Made by a program: the position numbers and the translations under genes. The notes under the pieces are model-generated. The model worked only from the letters and a program-made list of their open reading frames with translations, was not told the DNA's origin and searched no databases. From assembly GCA_030037175.1 (NCBI GenBank), contig JASHRV010000260.1, forward strand, positions 1 through 53,660: 53,660 nt of DNA. The letters are read 5' to 3'. Source of the stretch: Acetobacteraceae bacterium. GTDB taxonomy: Bacteria > Pseudomonadota > Alphaproteobacteria > Acetobacterales > Acetobacteraceae. Shown piece by piece: positions 25,011 to 39,455 of the stretch. Position 1 is the stretch's first letter; each line of letters begins with the position of its first letter.

Positions 25011-25193
25011 CTAATGGTTCGACGCGCCGATGGCGTTTGTCATCTCCCCGTTCATATGAACCATGAAGGATCCCGGCGCCGCCGGCGGGGAGGACGCCTT
25101 CGCAATTGTTGCCGCGTTGCTGCAGCCGCTTAGGGCAACAAGCGCCGTGACGATCATGCCGGCAATCATGCTGTTGCCCCATCCCGCCTTCAC
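25011..25193 (-). CDS. Small putative lipoprotein (60 aa)
   Basis: MKAGWGNSMIAGMIVTALVALSGCSNAATIAKASSPPAAPGSFMVHMNGEMTNAIGASNH: signal helix plus LSGC lipobox; ATGA overlap with upstream kinase ORF. Confidence 0.65.
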   Translation of the reverse strand: MKAGWGNSMIAGMIVTALVALSGCSNAATIAKASSPPAAPGSFMVHMNGEMTNAIGASNH

Positions 25194-25897
25194 GGCTCGA
25201 TCTCTATTTCCGTTCGCGCAACGCGGGAGCGCTCAGGCGGTCGGATCTTCTCATCTGGCAGGCGCACTTCGACCACCGTCTGCGGATAAGTCGTAACCTT
25301 TACGATCCCTCCTTCGGCGCGCGCCAGTTCCTCGACCAATTCAAGCCCTTCCCCGAACCGTGTCGGGTTCTCCGTCTGCCAGCCGTCGTTAGCAACTGAA
25401 AGAACCGTGCTGCCTCCTGCCGCGCGAAAAAGCCACACTGATATGCGTCCGAGCAACCGCATATGCATGCCATGTTTGACTGCATTGCCCACGAGCTCGT
25501 AGGCAATCCGGAGGATCGTCTCTTCCCGTTCGGGCGACCAGCCGTCCATCGCGGTAACATCGAGGCGAATGATCTGCGTTGTGTCGGTATAGAGAGCGAT
25601 CACGCTTTCAGCGAGAGATTGCAGCCGCACAAACAGAGGCTCAAGGCCCCGGGTGAAGCCGAACAGGGCGTCGGAGATCGCCGCGGCCAGCTCGATCCGG
25701 CGCGCAACCTCGTGCGCGAGGCGCTGATTTTCAAGGTTTTCGCTAACTCCCGGCGCCTCCAGCACGTGGATCAAGATCCGCTGCAGCGCGTTCTTCGTTT
25801 GATGCCGTAGCTGCCGGAACTCGATGGGTTCGACATTTCGGCGGGATGAAAGCCCATCCGGGGCGGCCTTTTCCTCTGCCAGGTACGATGTGGGCAT
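25190..25897 (-). CDS. Soluble HisKA_2/HWE-type sensor histidine kinase without obvious input domain
   Basis: FRQLRHQTKNALQRILIHV (H-box), IAYELVGNAVKHGMHMRLLGRISVW (N-box), LSVANDG. Confidence 0.85.
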   Translation of the reverse strand: MPTSYLAEEKAAPDGLSSRRNVEPIEFRQLRHQTKNALQRILIHVLEAPGVSENLENQRLAHEVARRIELAAAISDALFGFTRGLEPLFVRLQSLAESVIALYTDTTQIIRLDVTAMDGWSPEREETILRIAYELVGNAVKHGMHMRLLGRISVWLFRAAGGSTVLSVANDGWQTENPTRFGEGLELVEELARAEGGIVKVTTYPQTVVEVRLPDEKIRPPERSRVARTEIEIEP

Positions 25898-25946
25898 CGG
25901 CTCGTCCTCCGGTCATTGACGAAACAACGAGTGGGTGGCACACTAG

Positions 25947-26005
25947 CGTGGGAAAAATACCCACGTCAAGTGCAGCCGGCGGCTGGTGTGGGTTCTGTTC
26001 CCACG
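25947..26005. promoter_or_regulatory. Two GTGGG-N7-CCCAC dyads spaced 40 bp in divergent promoter
   Basis: CGTGGG-AAAAATA-CCCACG at 25947-25965 and GTGGG-TTCTGTT-CCCACG at 25988-26005. Confidence 0.6.
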
Positions 26006-26045
26006 CATTTGTGCTATCGAGCATTTTGTCCTTCGCGCCAACCGG

Positions 26046-26924
26046 ATGTCCCTCCCCGATCGCCCGCTTGTCCCTTCCCCCGAGGCCCTAGTCCGACCTC
26101 TGCGCAGCTTGCTGCGCCCACTTATCCGGCTTCTGATGCGGAGCGGCGTCACCTTCCCTGTCCTCGCCGATCTTCTGCGCGCTCTTTACGTGGATGTGGC
26201 GATCCGCGATGTCCTGACAGATCCCTCCGTCCGCACTGACAGCCGAGTCAGTCTGCTCACCGGTGTGCACCGCAAGGAGATCCGGCGGCTACGGACTGGA
26301 GCTGCGGAGGCAATGAACGAACCTCCGATTGTCACGCTGGCGAGCGCGGTCATCTCCCGCTGGCTCGGCGGAGCCATCTATACGGATGATCGGGGGCAGC
26401 CATTGATGCTGCCGCGCCTGGGCCGCTCACCTGGCACGCCCTCCTTCGAAGGTTTGGTGACCGCGATCACGACCGATGTCCGTCCGCGCGCCGTACTCGA
26501 TGATCTGCTCGCCCAGAACCTCGTGATGCTTGAGACCGACGATTGGGTTCGGCTCAATGTCGCGGCGTTTGTGCCGTTGCCCGGCCGCGACGCGCAGCTA
26601 TTCTATTTCGGCCGGAATCTTGGCGATCACATTGCTGCTGCTGCGGCCAATGTCGCTGCCGCCGGGGCAGCGCCGTTTTTTGATCGAAGCGTACATTACG
26701 ACGGTCTTGGAGCCGAAGCGGTCCGTCATCTGGCTCAGGCGGGCAGGGAGGCGGCTGAGCGTTTGCTCGTCGATTTCAACCGTACCGCGCTCGCCGTCGC
26801 GGATGCGGACGATCAAGAAGCGGTTCTGGTGCCCGACCGTGCGCGCCGCAGCCGCGTCAATCTTGGCGTCTTCCTTTATGTCGAGGACGCCCCCGACGAC
26901 GCGTCCGGAAAGGAGGCGCGTTGA
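26046..26924 (+). CDS. DUF6502 family protein (ORF can extend to 25986)
   Basis: MSLPDRPLVPSPEALVRPLRSLLRPLIRLLMRSGVTFPVLADLLRALYVDVAIRDV...TDSRVSLLTGVHRKEIRRLR. Confidence 0.75.
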   Translation: MSLPDRPLVPSPEALVRPLRSLLRPLIRLLMRSGVTFPVLADLLRALYVDVAIRDVLTDPSVRTDSRVSLLTGVHRKEIRRLRTGAAEAMNEPPIVTLASAVISRWLGGAIYTDDRGQPLMLPRLGRSPGTPSFEGLVTAITTDVRPRAVLDDLLAQNLVMLETDDWVRLNVAAFVPLPGRDAQLFYFGRNLGDHIAAAAANVAAAGAAPFFDRSVHYDGLGAEAVRHLAQAGREAAERLLVDFNRTALAVADADDQEAVLVPDRARRSRVNLGVFLYVEDAPDDASGKEAR

Positions 26925-28141
26925 TCGTGCGTGGACTTGCCGGATTTCTCGTCCTCGCTTTCCTTGCCTCCTGCGCGTCGCCGACAACCTTCCCCGGTCC
27001 ACCGCCTTTGCCAACATCGACTGCTGATCGCGGCATCGGCGGTACCGGTGGCCCAAGTGGCGCGGTTGAGGTAGATCGAGGCATCGGGGGTACCGGCATC
27101 GTCGGCGTGATTACGGGCTTCGGCAGCATCTTCGTCGACGGTCTTGAGGTGCACTATGGTGCCTCCACCCCAGTCACGGTCGATGATGCAAGCGCCTCGC
27201 CCACGGCCTTGCGCACGGGCCAGGTTGTTGCTGTCGAGGCCGTGGGTCCGCTCTCGGCGCTCTCTGCCCAAAGCGTGTCCATCCTCCATCAAGTGGCTGG
27301 TCCAGTTGAGGCGGTGGAGGATAATGGCCGGATGGCCCGTATCGCCGGTCAGAATGTCGCGATCCCAAATTCGATCGCGGGTGCCGCCGCACTTACGCCT
27401 GGTGCCTGGGTCGCGGTTAGTGGTTTGCCTCGCCCCGATGGCTCCGTGGTCGCCACTCGGATCGACCCGAGCCCTGCCGGCTTGGTGCGTGTGCGCGGAC
27501 AGATCGTTGCGGGCTCGGGTGGGCTGCTGCGGATTGGTCAGCTTTCGTTCGTCCCTACGCCCGTCTCGCACGTGACCCTGGGGCAATATGCAACAGTCAC
27601 CGGCCACCTCTTGGGCGACCAGCTGGTCGCTCGCTCGCTGAACCCCAACCTGGTCGCCGGCGACCCCTTTGTCCGCTTCGGCCCGCGCGTTGGGCGGGTG
27701 TTCATCGAATCCTACGTCACGCCCGCGGACGGCCGTCTCCGCATGGCTCGGGGGCTAAGCGTCGGCGTCCCCATCGGCATGCGCACAAGCTCGGTTGCAC
27801 CAGGTTGGGCCGTGCTGCAGCTGGTACGGGGTTCGGCTGGCTCGCCCCACGCGGTCGGGGCGAACTTTATCGCAGGGCCGGGCACGACGCCGCCACCGCT
27901 GGGCAGAGTTATGCATCCGACTCCTGACCCGGAGGAGCGTCCGGCCGGCGCGCGCTTGCCCGTGTTGCGTGACGCGCCGCGGGACGTTCCCAATGCGGAG
28001 GCTTATCCTCCCGCTTGCGAAGCGCAGGGCGGTTGTGGCGTTGGCATCGGTCTGCCCAGCGGCAGCTTCCCTGGTGGCGGTCTCCCGGGGGGATTTGGCA
28101 TCCGGCCGAATGGTGGTCCAGGCGGCGGTCCGCCACGATAG
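26921..28141 (+). CDS. DUF5666 domain-containing lipoprotein
   Basis: LAGFLVLAFLASCASP lipobox; DRGIGGTG...GTGIVGVITGFGSIFVDGLEVHYGASTPVTVDD repeated OB-like DUF5666 pattern; Gly/Pro-rich C-terminus; overlaps DUF6502 stop. Confidence 0.8.
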   Translation: MIVRGLAGFLVLAFLASCASPTTFPGPPPLPTSTADRGIGGTGGPSGAVEVDRGIGGTGIVGVITGFGSIFVDGLEVHYGASTPVTVDDASASPTALRTGQVVAVEAVGPLSALSAQSVSILHQVAGPVEAVEDNGRMARIAGQNVAIPNSIAGAAALTPGAWVAVSGLPRPDGSVVATRIDPSPAGLVRVRGQIVAGSGGLLRIGQLSFVPTPVSHVTLGQYATVTGHLLGDQLVARSLNPNLVAGDPFVRFGPRVGRVFIESYVTPADGRLRMARGLSVGVPIGMRTSSVAPGWAVLQLVRGSAGSPHAVGANFIAGPGTTPPPLGRVMHPTPDPEERPAGARLPVLRDAPRDVPNAEAYPPACEAQGGCGVGIGLPSGSFPGGGLPGGFGIRPNGGPGGGPPR

Positions 28142-33734: not shown

Positions 33735-34322
33735 TCAGCGCTCGGCCGGGGGCTCGATCCAGCCGATATGCCCGTCTGGACGACGGTAGATGACGTTCAA
33801 CGTACCGCTCGCGCGGTTGCGGAACATCAACACCTGATGATCCGCGAGATCGAGCCGCATCACTGCGTCGCTGACCGAGAGGCGGTCGATCTCCATTGCC
33901 GATTCAGCAATCACGGTGGCATATGGTCCTGTCTCGGGGCTGCCGGCCGGGGCTGGCGTCGCCAGATCCTCCTGGGAGAGGATATATTGTCGGGCCATTT
34001 CGGGCCGCTCGCGGTTCGCGAGGTCCCGCGCATGTTCGTTGACGCGGCGGCGGTAGCGGCGCAACCGTTTGGCGATGTGCTCGGCCGCGTCATCGAAGGC
34101 GGTATGTGCGTCCTGTGCCTCGCCCTCGGCCCGCAGCACGATATCGCGGCCGGCATGCAGGTTGATATCGCAGGTGAAGAAGCTGCGTGCGCGGCCGAAT
34201 GTGACGGCTGCTTCCAGAGCGTGGTCGAAATACTTGCGTGTGATGCGGTCGAGATTCTCCGAGACGTGCGTGCGCAGCGCGTCCGAGAGGTCGAGCTGCT
34301 TGCCAGCAATGGTGATCTGCAT
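33735..34322 (-). CDS. hpf: Ribosome hibernation-promoting factor (long form)
   Basis: MQITIAGKQLDLSDALRTHVSENLDRITRKYFDHALEAAVTFGRARSFFTCDINLHAGRDIVLRAEGEAQDAHTAFDDAAEHIAKRLRRYRRR; C-terminal VLMFRNRASGTLNVIYRRPDGHIGWI. Confidence 0.96.
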   Translation of the reverse strand: MQITIAGKQLDLSDALRTHVSENLDRITRKYFDHALEAAVTFGRARSFFTCDINLHAGRDIVLRAEGEAQDAHTAFDDAAEHIAKRLRRYRRRVNEHARDLANRERPEMARQYILSQEDLATPAPAGSPETGPYATVIAESAMEIDRLSVSDAVMRLDLADHQVLMFRNRASGTLNVIYRRPDGHIGWIEPPAER

Positions 34323-34330
34323 GGCTTTCC

Positions 34331-35836
34331 TCACGCCGACGCCATCTTCTCACGGCGGCGCTGCACCGAGCTCGGGATGCGCAGCGCCTCCCTGTATTTG
34401 GCCACGGTTCGCCGCGCAATGTCCACACCTTCTCGCCTGAGCGCGGAGACGATTGCGTCATCGGAGAGCACTGAGTCGGCCGTTTCGGCATCAACGAGCG
34501 TCCGGATCCGCTGACGCACCGCTTCGGCGCTGTGGGTCTCGCCATCAACTCCGGCAATCGCAGTCGTGAAAAAATACTTGAGTTCGAAGATTCCGCGCGG
34601 CGTCGCAATATATTTGTTCGCGGTCACCCGGCTCACCGTGCTCTCGTGCATCTCCACCATTTCAGCCACATCGCGCAGGATCAGCGGGCGAAGATGCCCA
34701 ATGCCGTGCTCGAAGAAGCCGTTCTGCCGGCGCACGATCTCGGCCGCCACCTTGAGAATCGTCTCGGCACGCTGCTCGAGAGAGCGGACCAGCCAATTGG
34801 CAGCGGCAAGGCGCTCGGCGAGGAAGGATCGCTCCGCTCCCCGCGCACCGACGCTGATGCGTGCGTGGAAAGCGTGATTGACGAGCACGCGCGGCAGCGT
34901 GTCCGGGTTGAGCTCGAGCCGGAAATCGCCGTTTTCCTCGCGGCGCATCAGGATGTCGGGCACGAGCGGCGCGAGCGGCTCGGTGTCGAAGCGGGTGCCC
35001 GGCTTCGGATCGAGCCGGCGCAGCTCGGCCACCATGTCCGCGAGATCCTCCGCATCGACGCCGCAAATCACACGAAGCTCGTTCATCTCTCGCCGGGCGA
35101 GGAGATCGAGATGCTTGAGCAGGGCCGCCATCGCCGGGTCAAGTCGGTTGCGCTCGGCGAGCTGGGCAGCCAGGCATTCGCTGAGATCGCGGGCAAAGCA
35201 GCCGACCGGATCGAACTGCAGCATGCGTGCCCGTATGCGTTCGATCTCCTCGAGCGGAGCGCCGAGTGCCGCCGCAAGCGCGACGGGCTCGGCCGAGAGC
35301 CGCCCTGCCGGATCGAGCAGCGCGATCAGGTGCGCGCCGATCAGCCGCTCCCGCGGCGCCTCGAATGCGAGCCGGAGCTGTTCGGAGAGATACTCGCGGA
35401 GGGAACGTGGACCCTCCGCCACGTTTTCGATTCCCCGCTCGTCCGGCTCGAAGGACCCGCTGTTCCGGCCCGCCCCATCGGAGAGCCCCCCGCCGTCGGA
35501 CGGCCCACCCGCGTCATAGGTCTCGGCAAGCTCGGCATCGAGGGGCGCCGCTTCCGGTGCCGGCAGCACTTCCGAGCTCACCAGCGCTGCCGCATCTGCC
35601 TCGGGTGGGGGCCCATCCGGCCGCTGGTCGGGTGCCGGTGCCTCTCCGGCCATGTCCCCACCGGTGCTGTCCTGCCCCTCGTCGCGTTCAAGCAGCGGAT
35701 TGCGCTCCAGTTCCTCCGTCACGAAGGTCGCGAGATCGAGGTTCGAGAGCTGTAGCAGCTTGATCGCCTGCCGAAGCTGGGGCGTCATCACCAGCGCGGT
35801 GGACTGGCGGATCTCCAGGCGTGGTCCGATCGCCAT
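34331..35836 (-). CDS. rpoN: RNA polymerase sigma-54 factor
   Basis: LEIRQSTALVMTPQLRQAIKLLQLSNLDLATFVTEELERNPLLE; RPLILRDVAEMVEMHESTVSRVTANKYIATPRGIFELKYFFT; RRTVAKYREALRIPSS RpoN box region. Confidence 0.98.
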   Translation of the reverse strand: MAIGPRLEIRQSTALVMTPQLRQAIKLLQLSNLDLATFVTEELERNPLLERDEGQDSTGGDMAGEAPAPDQRPDGPPPEADAAALVSSEVLPAPEAAPLDAELAETYDAGGPSDGGGLSDGAGRNSGSFEPDERGIENVAEGPRSLREYLSEQLRLAFEAPRERLIGAHLIALLDPAGRLSAEPVALAAALGAPLEEIERIRARMLQFDPVGCFARDLSECLAAQLAERNRLDPAMAALLKHLDLLARREMNELRVICGVDAEDLADMVAELRRLDPKPGTRFDTEPLAPLVPDILMRREENGDFRLELNPDTLPRVLVNHAFHARISVGARGAERSFLAERLAAANWLVRSLEQRAETILKVAAEIVRRQNGFFEHGIGHLRPLILRDVAEMVEMHESTVSRVTANKYIATPRGIFELKYFFTTAIAGVDGETHSAEAVRQRIRTLVDAETADSVLSDDAIVSALRREGVDIARRTVAKYREALRIPSSVQRRREKMASA

Positions 35837-35870
35837 GGCCGGAACTAGTTTTCTGCCGGCTTCGTCCGCG

Positions 35871-35886
35871 GTTCGCGGCCGCGAAC
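35871..35886. promoter_or_regulatory. Perfect 16-bp palindrome GTTCGCGGCCGCGAAC upstream of rpoN
   Basis: Sequence equals its reverse complement; about 35 nt upstream of rpoN start. Confidence 0.4.
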
Positions 35887-35973
35887 GAACTGGATCATCA
35901 ATCGGTTGGAAATGAAACGAAAGCGTTCCGATATCGGCACGGTTCTAGTCATTCCGACCTCGCCATCGGAACA

Positions 35974-36726
35974 CTAGAGGCTGAACCTTTCTCCGAGGTA
36001 GAAACGGCGCACGTCCGCATGCGCCACCACCTCCTCGGGCGCCCCGTGCATTAGGACCTCACCCTCGTGCAGAATGTAGGCCCGGTCCACGATCTCCAGC
36101 GTCTCCCGCACATTGTGGTCGGTGATCAGCACCCCGATCCCGCGCAGCTTCAGATGCGAAACGAGATCGCGAATCTCGCCAAGTGCGATCGGGTCAATCC
36201 CGGCCAGCGGTTCGTCGAGCAGGATATAGCTCGGCTGGCTCGCCAGCGCCCGCGCGATCTCGAGCCGTCGCCGCTCCCCGCCCGAGAGGGCAAGCGAGGG
36301 GGTGCGTCTGAGATGCGTGATCCCGAACTCGGAGAGCAAAGCCTCAAGCATCTGCTCGCGCCGGTCGGCATAAGGCTCGGACACTTCGAGCACGGCCCGG
36401 ATATTCTGCTCGACATTGAGGCCGCGAAAGATGCTCGCCTCCTGCGGCAGATAGCCGATGCCAAGCCGCGCGCGGCGGTACATGGGCAAGCTGGTGATCT
36501 CGGCGCCGTCGAGCGTGATGGAGCCAGTGTCCGGCGGCACCAGCCCGACGATCATATAAAAAGTCGTGGTCTTTCCCGCGCCGTTCGGCCCCAGCAGCCC
36601 GACCGCCTCGCCGCGCGTGAGCCGGATGTTCACATTCCGTACCACCGGACGACGGCGAAACTGCTTGCCCAACCCGCGGGCGACGAGGCCGCCGCCGCCG
36701 GAAAGCACGCGCAGGCGCTCGCTCAT
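35974..36726 (-). CDS. lptB: LPS export ABC transporter ATP-binding protein
   Basis: LARGLGKQFRRRPVVRNVNIRLTRGEAVGLLGPNGAGKTTTFYMIVGLVPPDTGSITLDGAEIT; LSGGERRRLEIARAL. Confidence 0.97.
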   Translation of the reverse strand: MSERLRVLSGGGGLVARGLGKQFRRRPVVRNVNIRLTRGEAVGLLGPNGAGKTTTFYMIVGLVPPDTGSITLDGAEITSLPMYRRARLGIGYLPQEASIFRGLNVEQNIRAVLEVSEPYADRREQMLEALLSEFGITHLRRTPSLALSGGERRRLEIARALASQPSYILLDEPLAGIDPIALGEIRDLVSHLKLRGIGVLITDHNVRETLEIVDRAYILHEGEVLMHGAPEEVVAHADVRRFYLGERFSL

Positions 36727-37763
36727 GGTTGAGTCCCTGAAGGCTTGGCTCCTGCTGCTGCGGGCGATTTCCCCGGCTGGCCTGGGCCGGCGTTTTGGCC
36801 TCCCGGCTGCGCCTGGTTCACCGAATTGGGCACGACCAGGCCCTGCACTCTCTGACCCGGCTCGGAAAGCAGCTCCGCTTGGCCGGTTTTCATATCCACC
36901 ACGCCCCGCGCACCGTTGAGCTGGTTCGGCCCCCGCGTGATCCGGACATCGCCCAGAATCAGCGCGATCCCGGTGGCAGGCACATAAACGCCGCGGTCGC
37001 CGGTGACGGTGTCCGTCGCCGTCCGGAGCGTGACGTTGCCGAACGCCTCCACCCGCTTGATCTGGCCGGAATCGGCCAGCGGGTCGGTGCCATTTGCCCC
37101 TCCAACGGCCTGATGCGACACGGCGGTGGCCGGCGATGACGCAGGGGCGTTGCCATTGGCATTCGCGGAGCCGCTCGAGGGCGTCGTATAGGCAACCAGC
37201 GTATCGGCCGTCACTCGGCGCCCGTCATTGGTGACGACGACGGCGTCGCCGCGCGCCACCGCCATATGTTTCTCGTTCCAGTATTCGACATCGTCGCGGG
37301 CGGTCAGAACATCGTTGGGCGTCGTGAGCTTGAGATGCCGGCCCGTCAGCACCAGCACCGCCTCGTCGACGTCATAGACCGCGTGATCGGCGAACGCCTG
37401 GTCGGTCGCCGTGAAGATGTGCACATGGCCGATCGCTTCCAGCCGATAGATCTGCTGCCCTCCGGTGTCCGGCCCGGCAGTCGCAGTGGCGCTCGCCGTC
37501 TGCAACGGGGCCGGTGCGGCCGAGGCGCCCGGCTTCGGCCGGTAATGGGCGATGAGCTCGTCCGCGGTCACGGTCACGGCACCCCGCACGGCCTGGGCAT
37601 CGCCTGTCGCGATCACCTCCTGCTGGCTCTGGCGCCATTCGATTCCGCCGACCGCGGTGATGGTGATCGGGCCGCCCTGCGAGAGGTCGAGTGCTTGCGC
37701 CGCCGCCGCGCGGGTGCCGAGCGCGAGAGCGAGGAGGAACCACGCGGCGGCCCAGCGCCTCAT
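36723..37763 (-). CDS. lptA: LptA/OstA family LPS transport periplasmic protein
   Basis: PITITAVGGIEWRQSQQEVIATGDAQAVRGAVTVTADELIAHYRPK; NQLNGARGVVDMKTGQAELLS; located between lptB and lptC. Confidence 0.93.
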   Translation of the reverse strand: MRRWAAAWFLLALALGTRAAAAQALDLSQGGPITITAVGGIEWRQSQQEVIATGDAQAVRGAVTVTADELIAHYRPKPGASAAPAPLQTASATATAGPDTGGQQIYRLEAIGHVHIFTATDQAFADHAVYDVDEAVLVLTGRHLKLTTPNDVLTARDDVEYWNEKHMAVARGDAVVVTNDGRRVTADTLVAYTTPSSGSANANGNAPASSPATAVSHQAVGGANGTDPLADSGQIKRVEAFGNVTLRTATDTVTGDRGVYVPATGIALILGDVRITRGPNQLNGARGVVDMKTGQAELLSEPGQRVQGLVVPNSVNQAQPGGQNAGPGQPGKSPAAAGAKPSGTQP

Positions 37764-38467
37764 TGGTTCTGCTGACCGTTCAGGACGAGGCGCGCCGGGC
37801 CGCTGAACTGGATCACCGATCCGCCATCGAGCAGGGTGAAGCCCATGGCATCCAGGGTGCCGAACGGTCCCTCGGCGCTCACAGGCACGCCGCTCGCGGC
37901 GGCGCCAGCGGCAAGGTCGACCGTGGCGCTTGCCGAGCGTAGCGTCGTCCCGTCATCGCGGTAGAGCGTGACACCGCCGGAAAGGTCGAGCTGGCGGCTC
38001 TTCTGGGCATAGACGCCCCGCAGCGCCGAGAGCATCACCCAGGAACCCGAATGCAGCGTGATATCCCCTTTAGGGGCGCTCAGATCGACACGATCCGGCC
38101 CCATCTGCAACGCTGAGTCGGCGGTCACGGTGTAGGGTTCGCCCTTATCATCCACGCTGCTGTAGCGCGCATCGAGAAGCTTTCCCCCGCCGCCTGGCGC
38201 CGTCGTATCGAGATGGAAGCTCACGCGCTGTCCTGCAACGCCGGTCTCGAAGTCGGGCCAGAGCGCCACGGAAGCGAGCAGGGCAAGGCCGAAGAAAGGC
38301 AGGATCAGCTTCGCCCAGCGCACGGCGAACCGCCGCCGCGCGATGCTCGCGGCCGAGGGCATCGGCCGGGCGCGGCCAAGCCCGAGCAGATGGATGCGCC
38401 CGAATTCGCGCGGGGCCGCCGCCGCTCTCAGCTTGGGCTTTTCCGTAGGGGCTTCGACGTCCGCCAT
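37760..38467 (-). CDS. lptC: LPS export ABC transporter periplasmic protein LptC
   Basis: Single TM helix (LILPFFGLALLASVALWP), DARYSSVDDKGEPYTVTADSALQMG, DLSGGVTLYRDDGTTLRSASATVDLAAG; operon position. Confidence 0.93.
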   Translation of the reverse strand: MADVEAPTEKPKLRAAAAPREFGRIHLLGLGRARPMPSAASIARRRFAVRWAKLILPFFGLALLASVALWPDFETGVAGQRVSFHLDTTAPGGGGKLLDARYSSVDDKGEPYTVTADSALQMGPDRVDLSAPKGDITLHSGSWVMLSALRGVYAQKSRQLDLSGGVTLYRDDGTTLRSASATVDLAAGAAASGVPVSAEGPFGTLDAMGFTLLDGGSVIQFSGPARLVLNGQQNQ

Positions 38468-38471
38468 TGCC

Positions 38472-39455
38472 TTACGCGATCCCCGCCCGCAACAGGTCAT
38501 GCACGTGCACGAGGCCGAGAAGCTCCTTTTCTTCATCCACCACGAAAAGGGTCGTGATCGGCCGCGATCCTGCATTCATCTCGTGCAGCGCCTCGGCAGC
38601 CAGCGCGTCCGGCCTGATTGTGCGCGGGTTTCGCGTCATCACTTCGCCGACCCTCCGCGAGAGAAGGTCCGGACCCATGGCACGGCGCAGATCGCCGTCG
38701 GTGATGACGCCGACGAGGCGGCCGGACGTGGCGACGACGCCAAGGCAGCCGAACGATTTCTCGGTCATCACCAGAAGCGCCCGGTCCATCGCCATTTCCG
38801 GCCGAGCGAGCGGAAGCGCCTCGCCGGTGTGCATCACCTCGCGCACCCGAAGCAGCCTTGCGCCCAATTTCCCGCCGGGGTGGAACTGGTGGAAATCGCT
38901 CGCCGTAAAGCCGCGGCGCTTGAGCAGCGCGACGGCCAAGGCATCACCCAGGGCCATCTGCATGGTCGTGGAAGTGGTGGGTGCCAAGCCCATCGGACAG
39001 GCCTCCGCCGCTCCCGGCAGCATCAGCACCACGTCCGCCGCCTTCGCGAGCGCCGAGCCTGCGCGCGCCGTGATCGCGATCAGCGGCAGGGCGAAGCGCC
39101 GCGCATGGGCAACGAGATCGGCAAGCTCGGCTGTCTCCCCTGAGTTGGAAAGGGCAAGCACCGCATCGCCGGCCACGATCATGCCAAGATCGCCGTGCGA
39201 GGCTTCGCCCGGATGGACGAACAACGCCGGCGTGCCGGTCGAGGCGAGGGTCGCCGCGATCTTCCGCGCCACATGCCCCGACTTGCCCATACCCGAAACC
39301 ACCACCCGCCCTGAGGCGCCGAGCATCAGCTCGACCGCGCGGGGGAAACTCTCGTCGAGCGAAGCGGCGAGCGCCCGCAACCCGGCCGCTTCCAGCGCCA
39401 GCACCGCACCGGCTGCTGCGAGATCGTCGGGACGGTCCAAGGCCAGCTGAGGCAT
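38472..39455 (-). CDS. kdsD: Arabinose-5-phosphate isomerase (SIS + CBS pair)
   Basis: GRVVVSGMGKSGHVARKIAATLASTGTPALFVHPGEASHGDLGMI; C-terminal CBS domains GRLVGVITDGDLRRAM. Confidence 0.97.
   Translation of the reverse strand: MPQLALDRPDDLAAAGAVLALEAAGLRALAASLDESFPRAVELMLGASGRVVVSGMGKSGHVARKIAATLASTGTPALFVHPGEASHGDLGMIVAGDAVLALSNSGETAELADLVAHARRFALPLIAITARAGSALAKAADVVLMLPGAAEACPMGLAPTTSTTMQMALGDALAVALLKRRGFTASDFHQFHPGGKLGARLLRVREVMHTGEALPLARPEMAMDRALLVMTEKSFGCLGVVATSGRLVGVITDGDLRRAMGPDLLSRRVGEVMTRNPRTIRPDALAAEALHEMNAGSRPITTLFVVDEEKELLGLVHVHDLLRAGIA

Follow-up and report, generated by a model that had tools for sequence, protein, structure and literature searches.

An orphan histidine kinase encoded back to back with two domains without an assigned role, DUF6502 and DUF5666, raises the question of what these genes do together. 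The locus is part of a 53,660-nucleotide stretch of DNA from an Acetobacteraceae bacterium, referred to here as the window, and a previous sequence-only reading had described it as a four-ORF divergent module that might form an envelope-sensing circuit. In a literature search, no mention of DUF6502 or of a GTGGG-N7-CCCAC operator was found, nor were experimental data found.

Organization of the divergent module

All four ORFs of the proposed module are present in the window. The reverse strand encodes an orphan, soluble kinase core of the HWE/HisKA_2 type (25190-25897; 235 amino acids, with H32, the N-box residue N138, G172, and G182/G184) and a micro-lipoprotein of 60 amino acids with the lipobox LSGC (25011-25193, reverse strand), for which a GTG or an alternative internal ATG may serve as start. 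These two genes overlap by 4 nt as GTGA, and not as the ATGA given previously. The forward strand encodes the DUF6502 protein (26046-26924; 292 amino acids; PF20112, E = 1.1e-28) and a DUF5666 lipoprotein (26921-28141; 406 amino acids with DRGIGGTG repeats; PF18914, E = 2.7e-12), which are coupled, as had been stated, by an overlap, here a 4-nt TTGA. At least two such repeats precede the domain in nearly all homologues of the DUF5666 lipoprotein, that of the window included. The longest DUF6502 ORF opens at a GTG at position 25986, and since this codon falls inside or at the edge of operator 2, described below, translation probably begins at the ATG at 26046.

The claim that the module contains no response regulator is in line with our results: none was found among the genes adjoining it, and the assessment of the remainder of the window is based on translations alone. 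The kinase of the window thus does not have the adjacent response-regulator gene that marks a classical two-component pair. Translations also revealed an ordinary-looking block of ribosome-hibernation-, rpoN-, and LPS-transport-like genes at about 33735-39455 on the reverse strand.

Conservation of the kinase-DUF6502 arrangement

In a first search, of 120 relatives, every strong relative of the kinase was found head-to-head with DUF6502. A search of 398 genomes from the family of the window with a 12-sequence kinase profile identified 37 strong kinase loci, 36 of them scoring above 210 bits and one, a partial match, at 130 bits; below these, scores fall to less than 93 bits and correspond mostly to longer generic sensor kinases. 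At 30 of the 37 loci, distributed over 13 genera, the immediate divergent neighbor is DUF6502, so that the neighborhood is conserved beyond this strain and the module can be considered a genuine, conserved, and undescribed regulatory unit, as had been suggested. DUF6502 itself is present in 73 of the 398 genomes, namely, in 31 of the 36 genomes that carry the kinase and in 42 of the 362 others (Fisher p = 5.6e-21; owing to relatedness among the genomes, this and the following p-values overstate independence). Among the matches listed for named records, the pair also occurs in 'Asaia bogorensis' MAGs and in an Acetobacteraceae MAG, and at almost every locus that was examined, DUF6502 is followed by DUF5666. 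At one locus (G193; L314 4543-5915), the orphan kinase gene is duplicated in tandem next to DUF6502, and DUF5666 is followed by a flippase-like gene. No copy of the kinase was found in viral contigs.

The other surroundings of the module are less stable. It had been placed inside a CoA-metabolism cluster, but an acyl-CoA dehydrogenase gene adjoins it elsewhere only in a genome of the same genus (G002), and the other genera examined have different neighbors. The link to CoA metabolism was therefore rejected, and this context is incidental.

A paired operator in the shared promoter

The most informative feature of the locus, which is absent from the earlier description, is a paired operator in the promoter region shared by the two arms. 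This region holds two GTGGG-N7-CCCAC palindromes, to which no strand is assigned: operator 1, GTGGGAAAAATACCCAC, at 25948-25964 and operator 2, GTGGGTTCTGTTCCCAC, at 25988-26004. Exact GTGGGN7CCCAC sites were detected in 32 of 40 DUF6502 promoters, amounting to 52 sites against 0.065 expected from shuffled sequences. All 20 promoters shared with the kinase have an exact operator, as do 12 of the 20 without kinase; five of the eight promoters that do not have an exact operator have none even at one mismatch.

The positions of both operators relative to the predicted promoter elements are informative. An alignment of 26 promoters gives the kinase-ward consensus TTGAC-GTGGG-N7-CCCAC-ATAnnT, and in 21 of the 26, TTGAC immediately precedes operator 1 and a TATnnT-like -10 element immediately follows it. 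The corresponding predicted elements of the window are the -35 box TTGACG (25964-25969) and the -10 box TAGTGT (25940-25945), both on the reverse strand, the latter coinciding with the TATnnT column kept over the 26 promoters. Operator 1 fills the spacer of this sigma-70-like promoter, which measures 17 nt in the consensus and 18 nt in the window, and this placement is, as far as the predicted elements go, the arrangement of a repressor site. The DUF6502 promoter is organized differently: a TGCTAT-like -10 element, predicted at 26012-26017 on the forward strand from the sequence and with weakly conserved columns, follows operator 2 by about 7-10 nt, and no -35 element is recognizable. Operator 2 covers the expected -35 region of a promoter without a good -35 box and may therefore either repress or activate. 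The paired operator is the strongest evidence for co-regulation of both arms.

The palindrome is not restricted to the family of the window. Among 11 DUF6502 promoters sampled across the phylum outside this family, 8 contain its TGGGN7CCCA form, compared with 0.05 expected. Among the matches listed from a public genome collection, operator pairs with AT-rich spacers were nearly all located at DUF6502 loci, including those of Mesorhizobium, Azospirillum, Methylobacterium, Pseudohongiella, and a 'Deltaproteobacteria' MAG. Most of the at least 119 paired-operator loci were set aside as a different element, consisting of GC-rich or self-complementary tandem hairpins without DUF6502. Such tandem GTGGG-N7-CCCAC hairpins with self-complementary spacers (L095-L213) are frequent among the matches listed, are unrelated to DUF6502, and occur there in Rhodobacteraceae, Thiodiazotropha, Clostridia, Planctomycetes, and others; they are possibly terminators or REP-like elements. 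In the genome of the window, the only exact matches with the spacer type of the operator are the two at the module. The other GTGGGN7CCCAC matches of this genome mostly resemble tRNA T-arms and were rejected as members of a regulon.

Dependence of the operator on DUF6502

A link emerges between the occurrence of the operator and that of DUF6502. The strict motif GTGGGAW6CCCAC was found in 43 of the 398 genomes, 40 of which belong to the 73 that possess DUF6502 (p = 3.7e-31, for related genomes). As for the three exceptions, in two the contig ends at the operator (G198 and G422), and the third genome is 73% complete. Because this association reflects in part the conservation of the DUF6502 promoter itself, sites away from that promoter provide a fairer test. 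They were present in 17 of the 73 genomes with DUF6502 (22 sites) and in at most 3 of the 325 others (p = 4e-11, the genomes again being related). In addition, five kinase loci without DUF6502 (G142, G231, G431, G443:C88, and G218) have no operator, even when one mismatch is allowed; it is the off-locus sites and these kinase-only loci alone that address the conservation of the DUF6502 promoter as a confounding factor. In the comparison set for genomes outside the family, the strict motif was found in 4 of 214 genomes, the window's own included, and two of the four do not have DUF6502. The strict motif being rare there, it is the relaxed TGGGN7CCCA form that carries over.

DUF6502 as a probable DNA-binding protein

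The DUF6502 protein of the window matches PF20112 with 100.3 bits, against a cutoff of 27, over positions 4-268 of the 268-position profile. Its most conserved segment, DSRxSLLTGVHRKExxRLR, is predicted to form a helix-turn-helix (HTH). An AlphaFold model predicts an N-terminal HTH at residues 65-84 and a winged-HTH-like segment at residues 134-170, with a local pLDDT of about 90 but a poor overall model (pTM, 0.35). DNA binding by DUF6502, previously mentioned as possible, is probable, and operators that track DUF6502 lend it indirect support. Because of the pTM value, a Foldseek search with this model that gave no significant PDB match, and the fact that none of the Pfam HTH families matches the protein convincingly, we infer DNA binding rather than assign it.

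This leaves room for the idea that a different regulator, co-distributed with DUF6502, recognizes the palindromes; DUF6502 would then be one target among others and would serve lipoprotein or surface biogenesis in a non-regulatory way. The fold unmatched by Foldseek and the indirect case for DNA binding fit this idea, but it does not sit well with off-locus operators that track the presence of DUF6502, with the persistence of the operator together with DUF6502 across classes, or with the predicted HTH in the most conserved segment of the protein, and it is considered improbable.

A DNA-binding DUF6502 would resemble a known type of system. TetR- or MarR-like logic is that of divergently transcribed autoregulators with paired operators, in which one divergent promoter serves both regulator and target and palindromes lie over promoter elements. 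In contrast to these, DUF6502 has no Pfam-detectable relation to either family, and its proposed target is a two-component part.

Properties of the kinase core

The kinase had been assigned to the HisKA_2/HWE class. This assignment holds, since a kinase profile finds the Erythrobacter litoralis kinase EL346 (PDB 4R39/4R3A) as the closest protein of solved structure, at an E value of 2.9e-11; the Pfam HisKA_2 domain, in turn, was not detected in the window kinase. When the window sequence alone was searched against PDB sequences, no match was obtained, and the only Pfam domain seen in it is HATPase_c, below the cutoff (1.6e-4). The latter domain was detected in 12 of 12 homologues (best E value, 3.7e-11), and HisKA_2 was found weakly in 5 of the 12 (best E value, 0.022). 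Among 37 distinct kinase sequences, H32, E134, N138, H142, G143, G172, G182, and G184 are invariant, and the H-box LRHxTKNALQR, which contains H32, aligns to that of EL346. The protein is, by these sequence features, a sensor-less HWE/HisKA_2 core with an invariant phospho-acceptor histidine. Likeness to EL346 extends from the H-box to the C terminus and comprises the H-box, the N-box, and the ATP-binding core. The window kinase differs from EL346 in the absence of a LOV or any other input domain, in the G1-box changes Asn170 and Gln174, and in its linkage to DUF6502.

The G1-box Asp is kept in 34 of the 37 sequences and replaced by Asn in three, among them the window protein (Asn170), so that ATP binding by the latter is uncertain. 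A possible reading is that the protein is not an autokinase but a phosphotransferase like Caulobacter ChpT (PDB 4FPP/4FMT), or an ATP-binding switch, and simply one more target of DUF6502, which would be compatible with our main model for the latter. ChpT has a degenerate ATP site. Both proteins are similar in size, soluble, and sensor-less, with a DHp-like and a CA-like fold, and in Foldseek searches the kinase model matched ChpT (4FPP, 6e-8; 4FMT, 3.5e-7) in addition to EL346 (1.5e-8). However, the window kinase family largely keeps the N, G1, and G2 boxes, the N-box, the G1 Gly, and the G2 GxG being invariant and the G1 Asp mostly retained; by sequence, EL346, a kinase, matches best, and ChpT was not among the PDB sequence matches of the kinase profile at E <= 0.01. 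We regard the ChpT-like role as rather unlikely.

Alternatively, kinase and DUF6502 could form an atypical two-component pair, in which the kinase modifies or binds DUF6502 directly and so controls the operators, as a sensor and an effector without a receiver domain. The tight head-to-head linkage in 13 genera, the invariant histidine, and the parallel divergence of both proteins (Mantel r = 0.65; 0 of 2000 permutations), a correlation that shared species history also produces, are consistent with such a pair. Against it, no receiver domain or other matching Pfam domain was found in DUF6502, more than half of the genomes with DUF6502 do not have the kinase, many of them still with operators, and the kinase occurs at five loci without a nearby DUF6502. 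Moreover, an OmpR-type response regulator takes the divergent place of the kinase in two genomes without kinase (G031 and G198), and a regulator of this type adjoins a second operator site in a further genome (G066); these genes at operators are located at L059 6658-7335, L319 2355-3071, and L088 1547-2308. Since operators persist without the kinase, direct signaling from kinase to DUF6502 is possible but not needed for them, and we give this pairing a low probability.

Links to the cell envelope

It had been suggested that both lipoproteins feed the kinase and DUF6502 in an envelope-sensing circuit. The lipoboxes of both neighbors are in agreement with this suggestion, as are the surface or envelope functions of several genes linked to operators. 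However, the micro-lipoprotein, which had been treated as a core part of the module, has a single homologue, in another species of the same genus (G002; phmmer, 6.5e-6), and no lipoprotein ORF of a similar kind was found behind the kinase in 10 other genomes or records. Nor does the kinase contain any segment in the membrane or the periplasm. With the micro-lipoprotein also confined to the genus, no path by which a lipoprotein could signal to the kinase is apparent, and a circuit of that kind is very unlikely.

The broader association with the envelope, in contrast, is upheld, as genes linked to operators elsewhere often have envelope or surface functions. Operator-linked genes encode glycosyltransferases in Mesorhizobium and Inquilinus, a DUF374 acyltransferase, an ABC-2 exporter, an ice-binding-like adhesin, a DUF4214 protein, and a DUF192 protein; RTX-like and autotransporter-like proteins can be added on the basis of translations alone. 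In three species (L323, L326, and L329; genus g4), the same off-locus operator is located where a DUF374-type acyltransferase gene begins. Some off-locus sites, such as that of the DUF192 gene (L322), adjoin genes with no obvious envelope role. Taken together, these genes appear to lean to the cell surface, though not exclusively. As an analogy only, likened by description, PhyK is an orphan HWE kinase that shapes the Brucella envelope and has been discussed in relation to the PhyR/EcfG general stress response (PMC12354254). In the window, no PhyR/EcfG-type partner was found next to the kinase, its linkage being to DUF6502.

Proposed circuit and its implications

Comparative sequence analysis reveals a conserved layout, operators that depend on DUF6502, and a conserved kinase core, and from these we infer how DUF6502 contacts DNA and represses, which signal it answers to, and what the kinase acts on, as follows. 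It is likely that DUF6502, bound to the palindromes, represses the kinase gene and regulates itself together with DUF5666. DUF6502 would be a previously unrecognized family of DNA-binding transcription regulators that read TGGGAA-N3-TTCCCA, or GTGGG-N7-CCCAC in the bacterial family of the window, and would control its own DUF6502-DUF5666 operon and whichever gene is divergent, which in this lineage is a small soluble HWE/HisKA_2-type histidine kinase. With operator 1 lying between the -35 and -10 elements, DUF6502 bound there is expected to keep RNA polymerase off the kinase promoter and so to repress the gene, whereas from operator 2 it may repress or activate its own promoter. The signal that releases DUF6502 is probably related to the cell surface, since the protein shares its operon with a DUF5666 lipoprotein and operators elsewhere often lie beside surface or envelope genes. 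The kinase, once made, would phosphorylate a response regulator encoded elsewhere.

More speculatively, and here we remain doubtful, DUF6502 could represent a widespread class of regulators in the Pseudomonadota with a deeply conserved TGGGAA-N3-TTCCCA operator and a surface regulon, from which the Acetobacteraceae would have built a hybrid one- and two-component circuit, with an input-less HWE kinase and a DUF5666 lipoprotein that reports the state of the envelope. The linkage to DUF6502 explains the near-constant position of an orphan kinase whose partner would otherwise be impossible to guess, and with a defined palindrome tied to it, DUF6502, so far a domain of unknown function, becomes a candidate regulator that can be tested and for which a regulon can be predicted.
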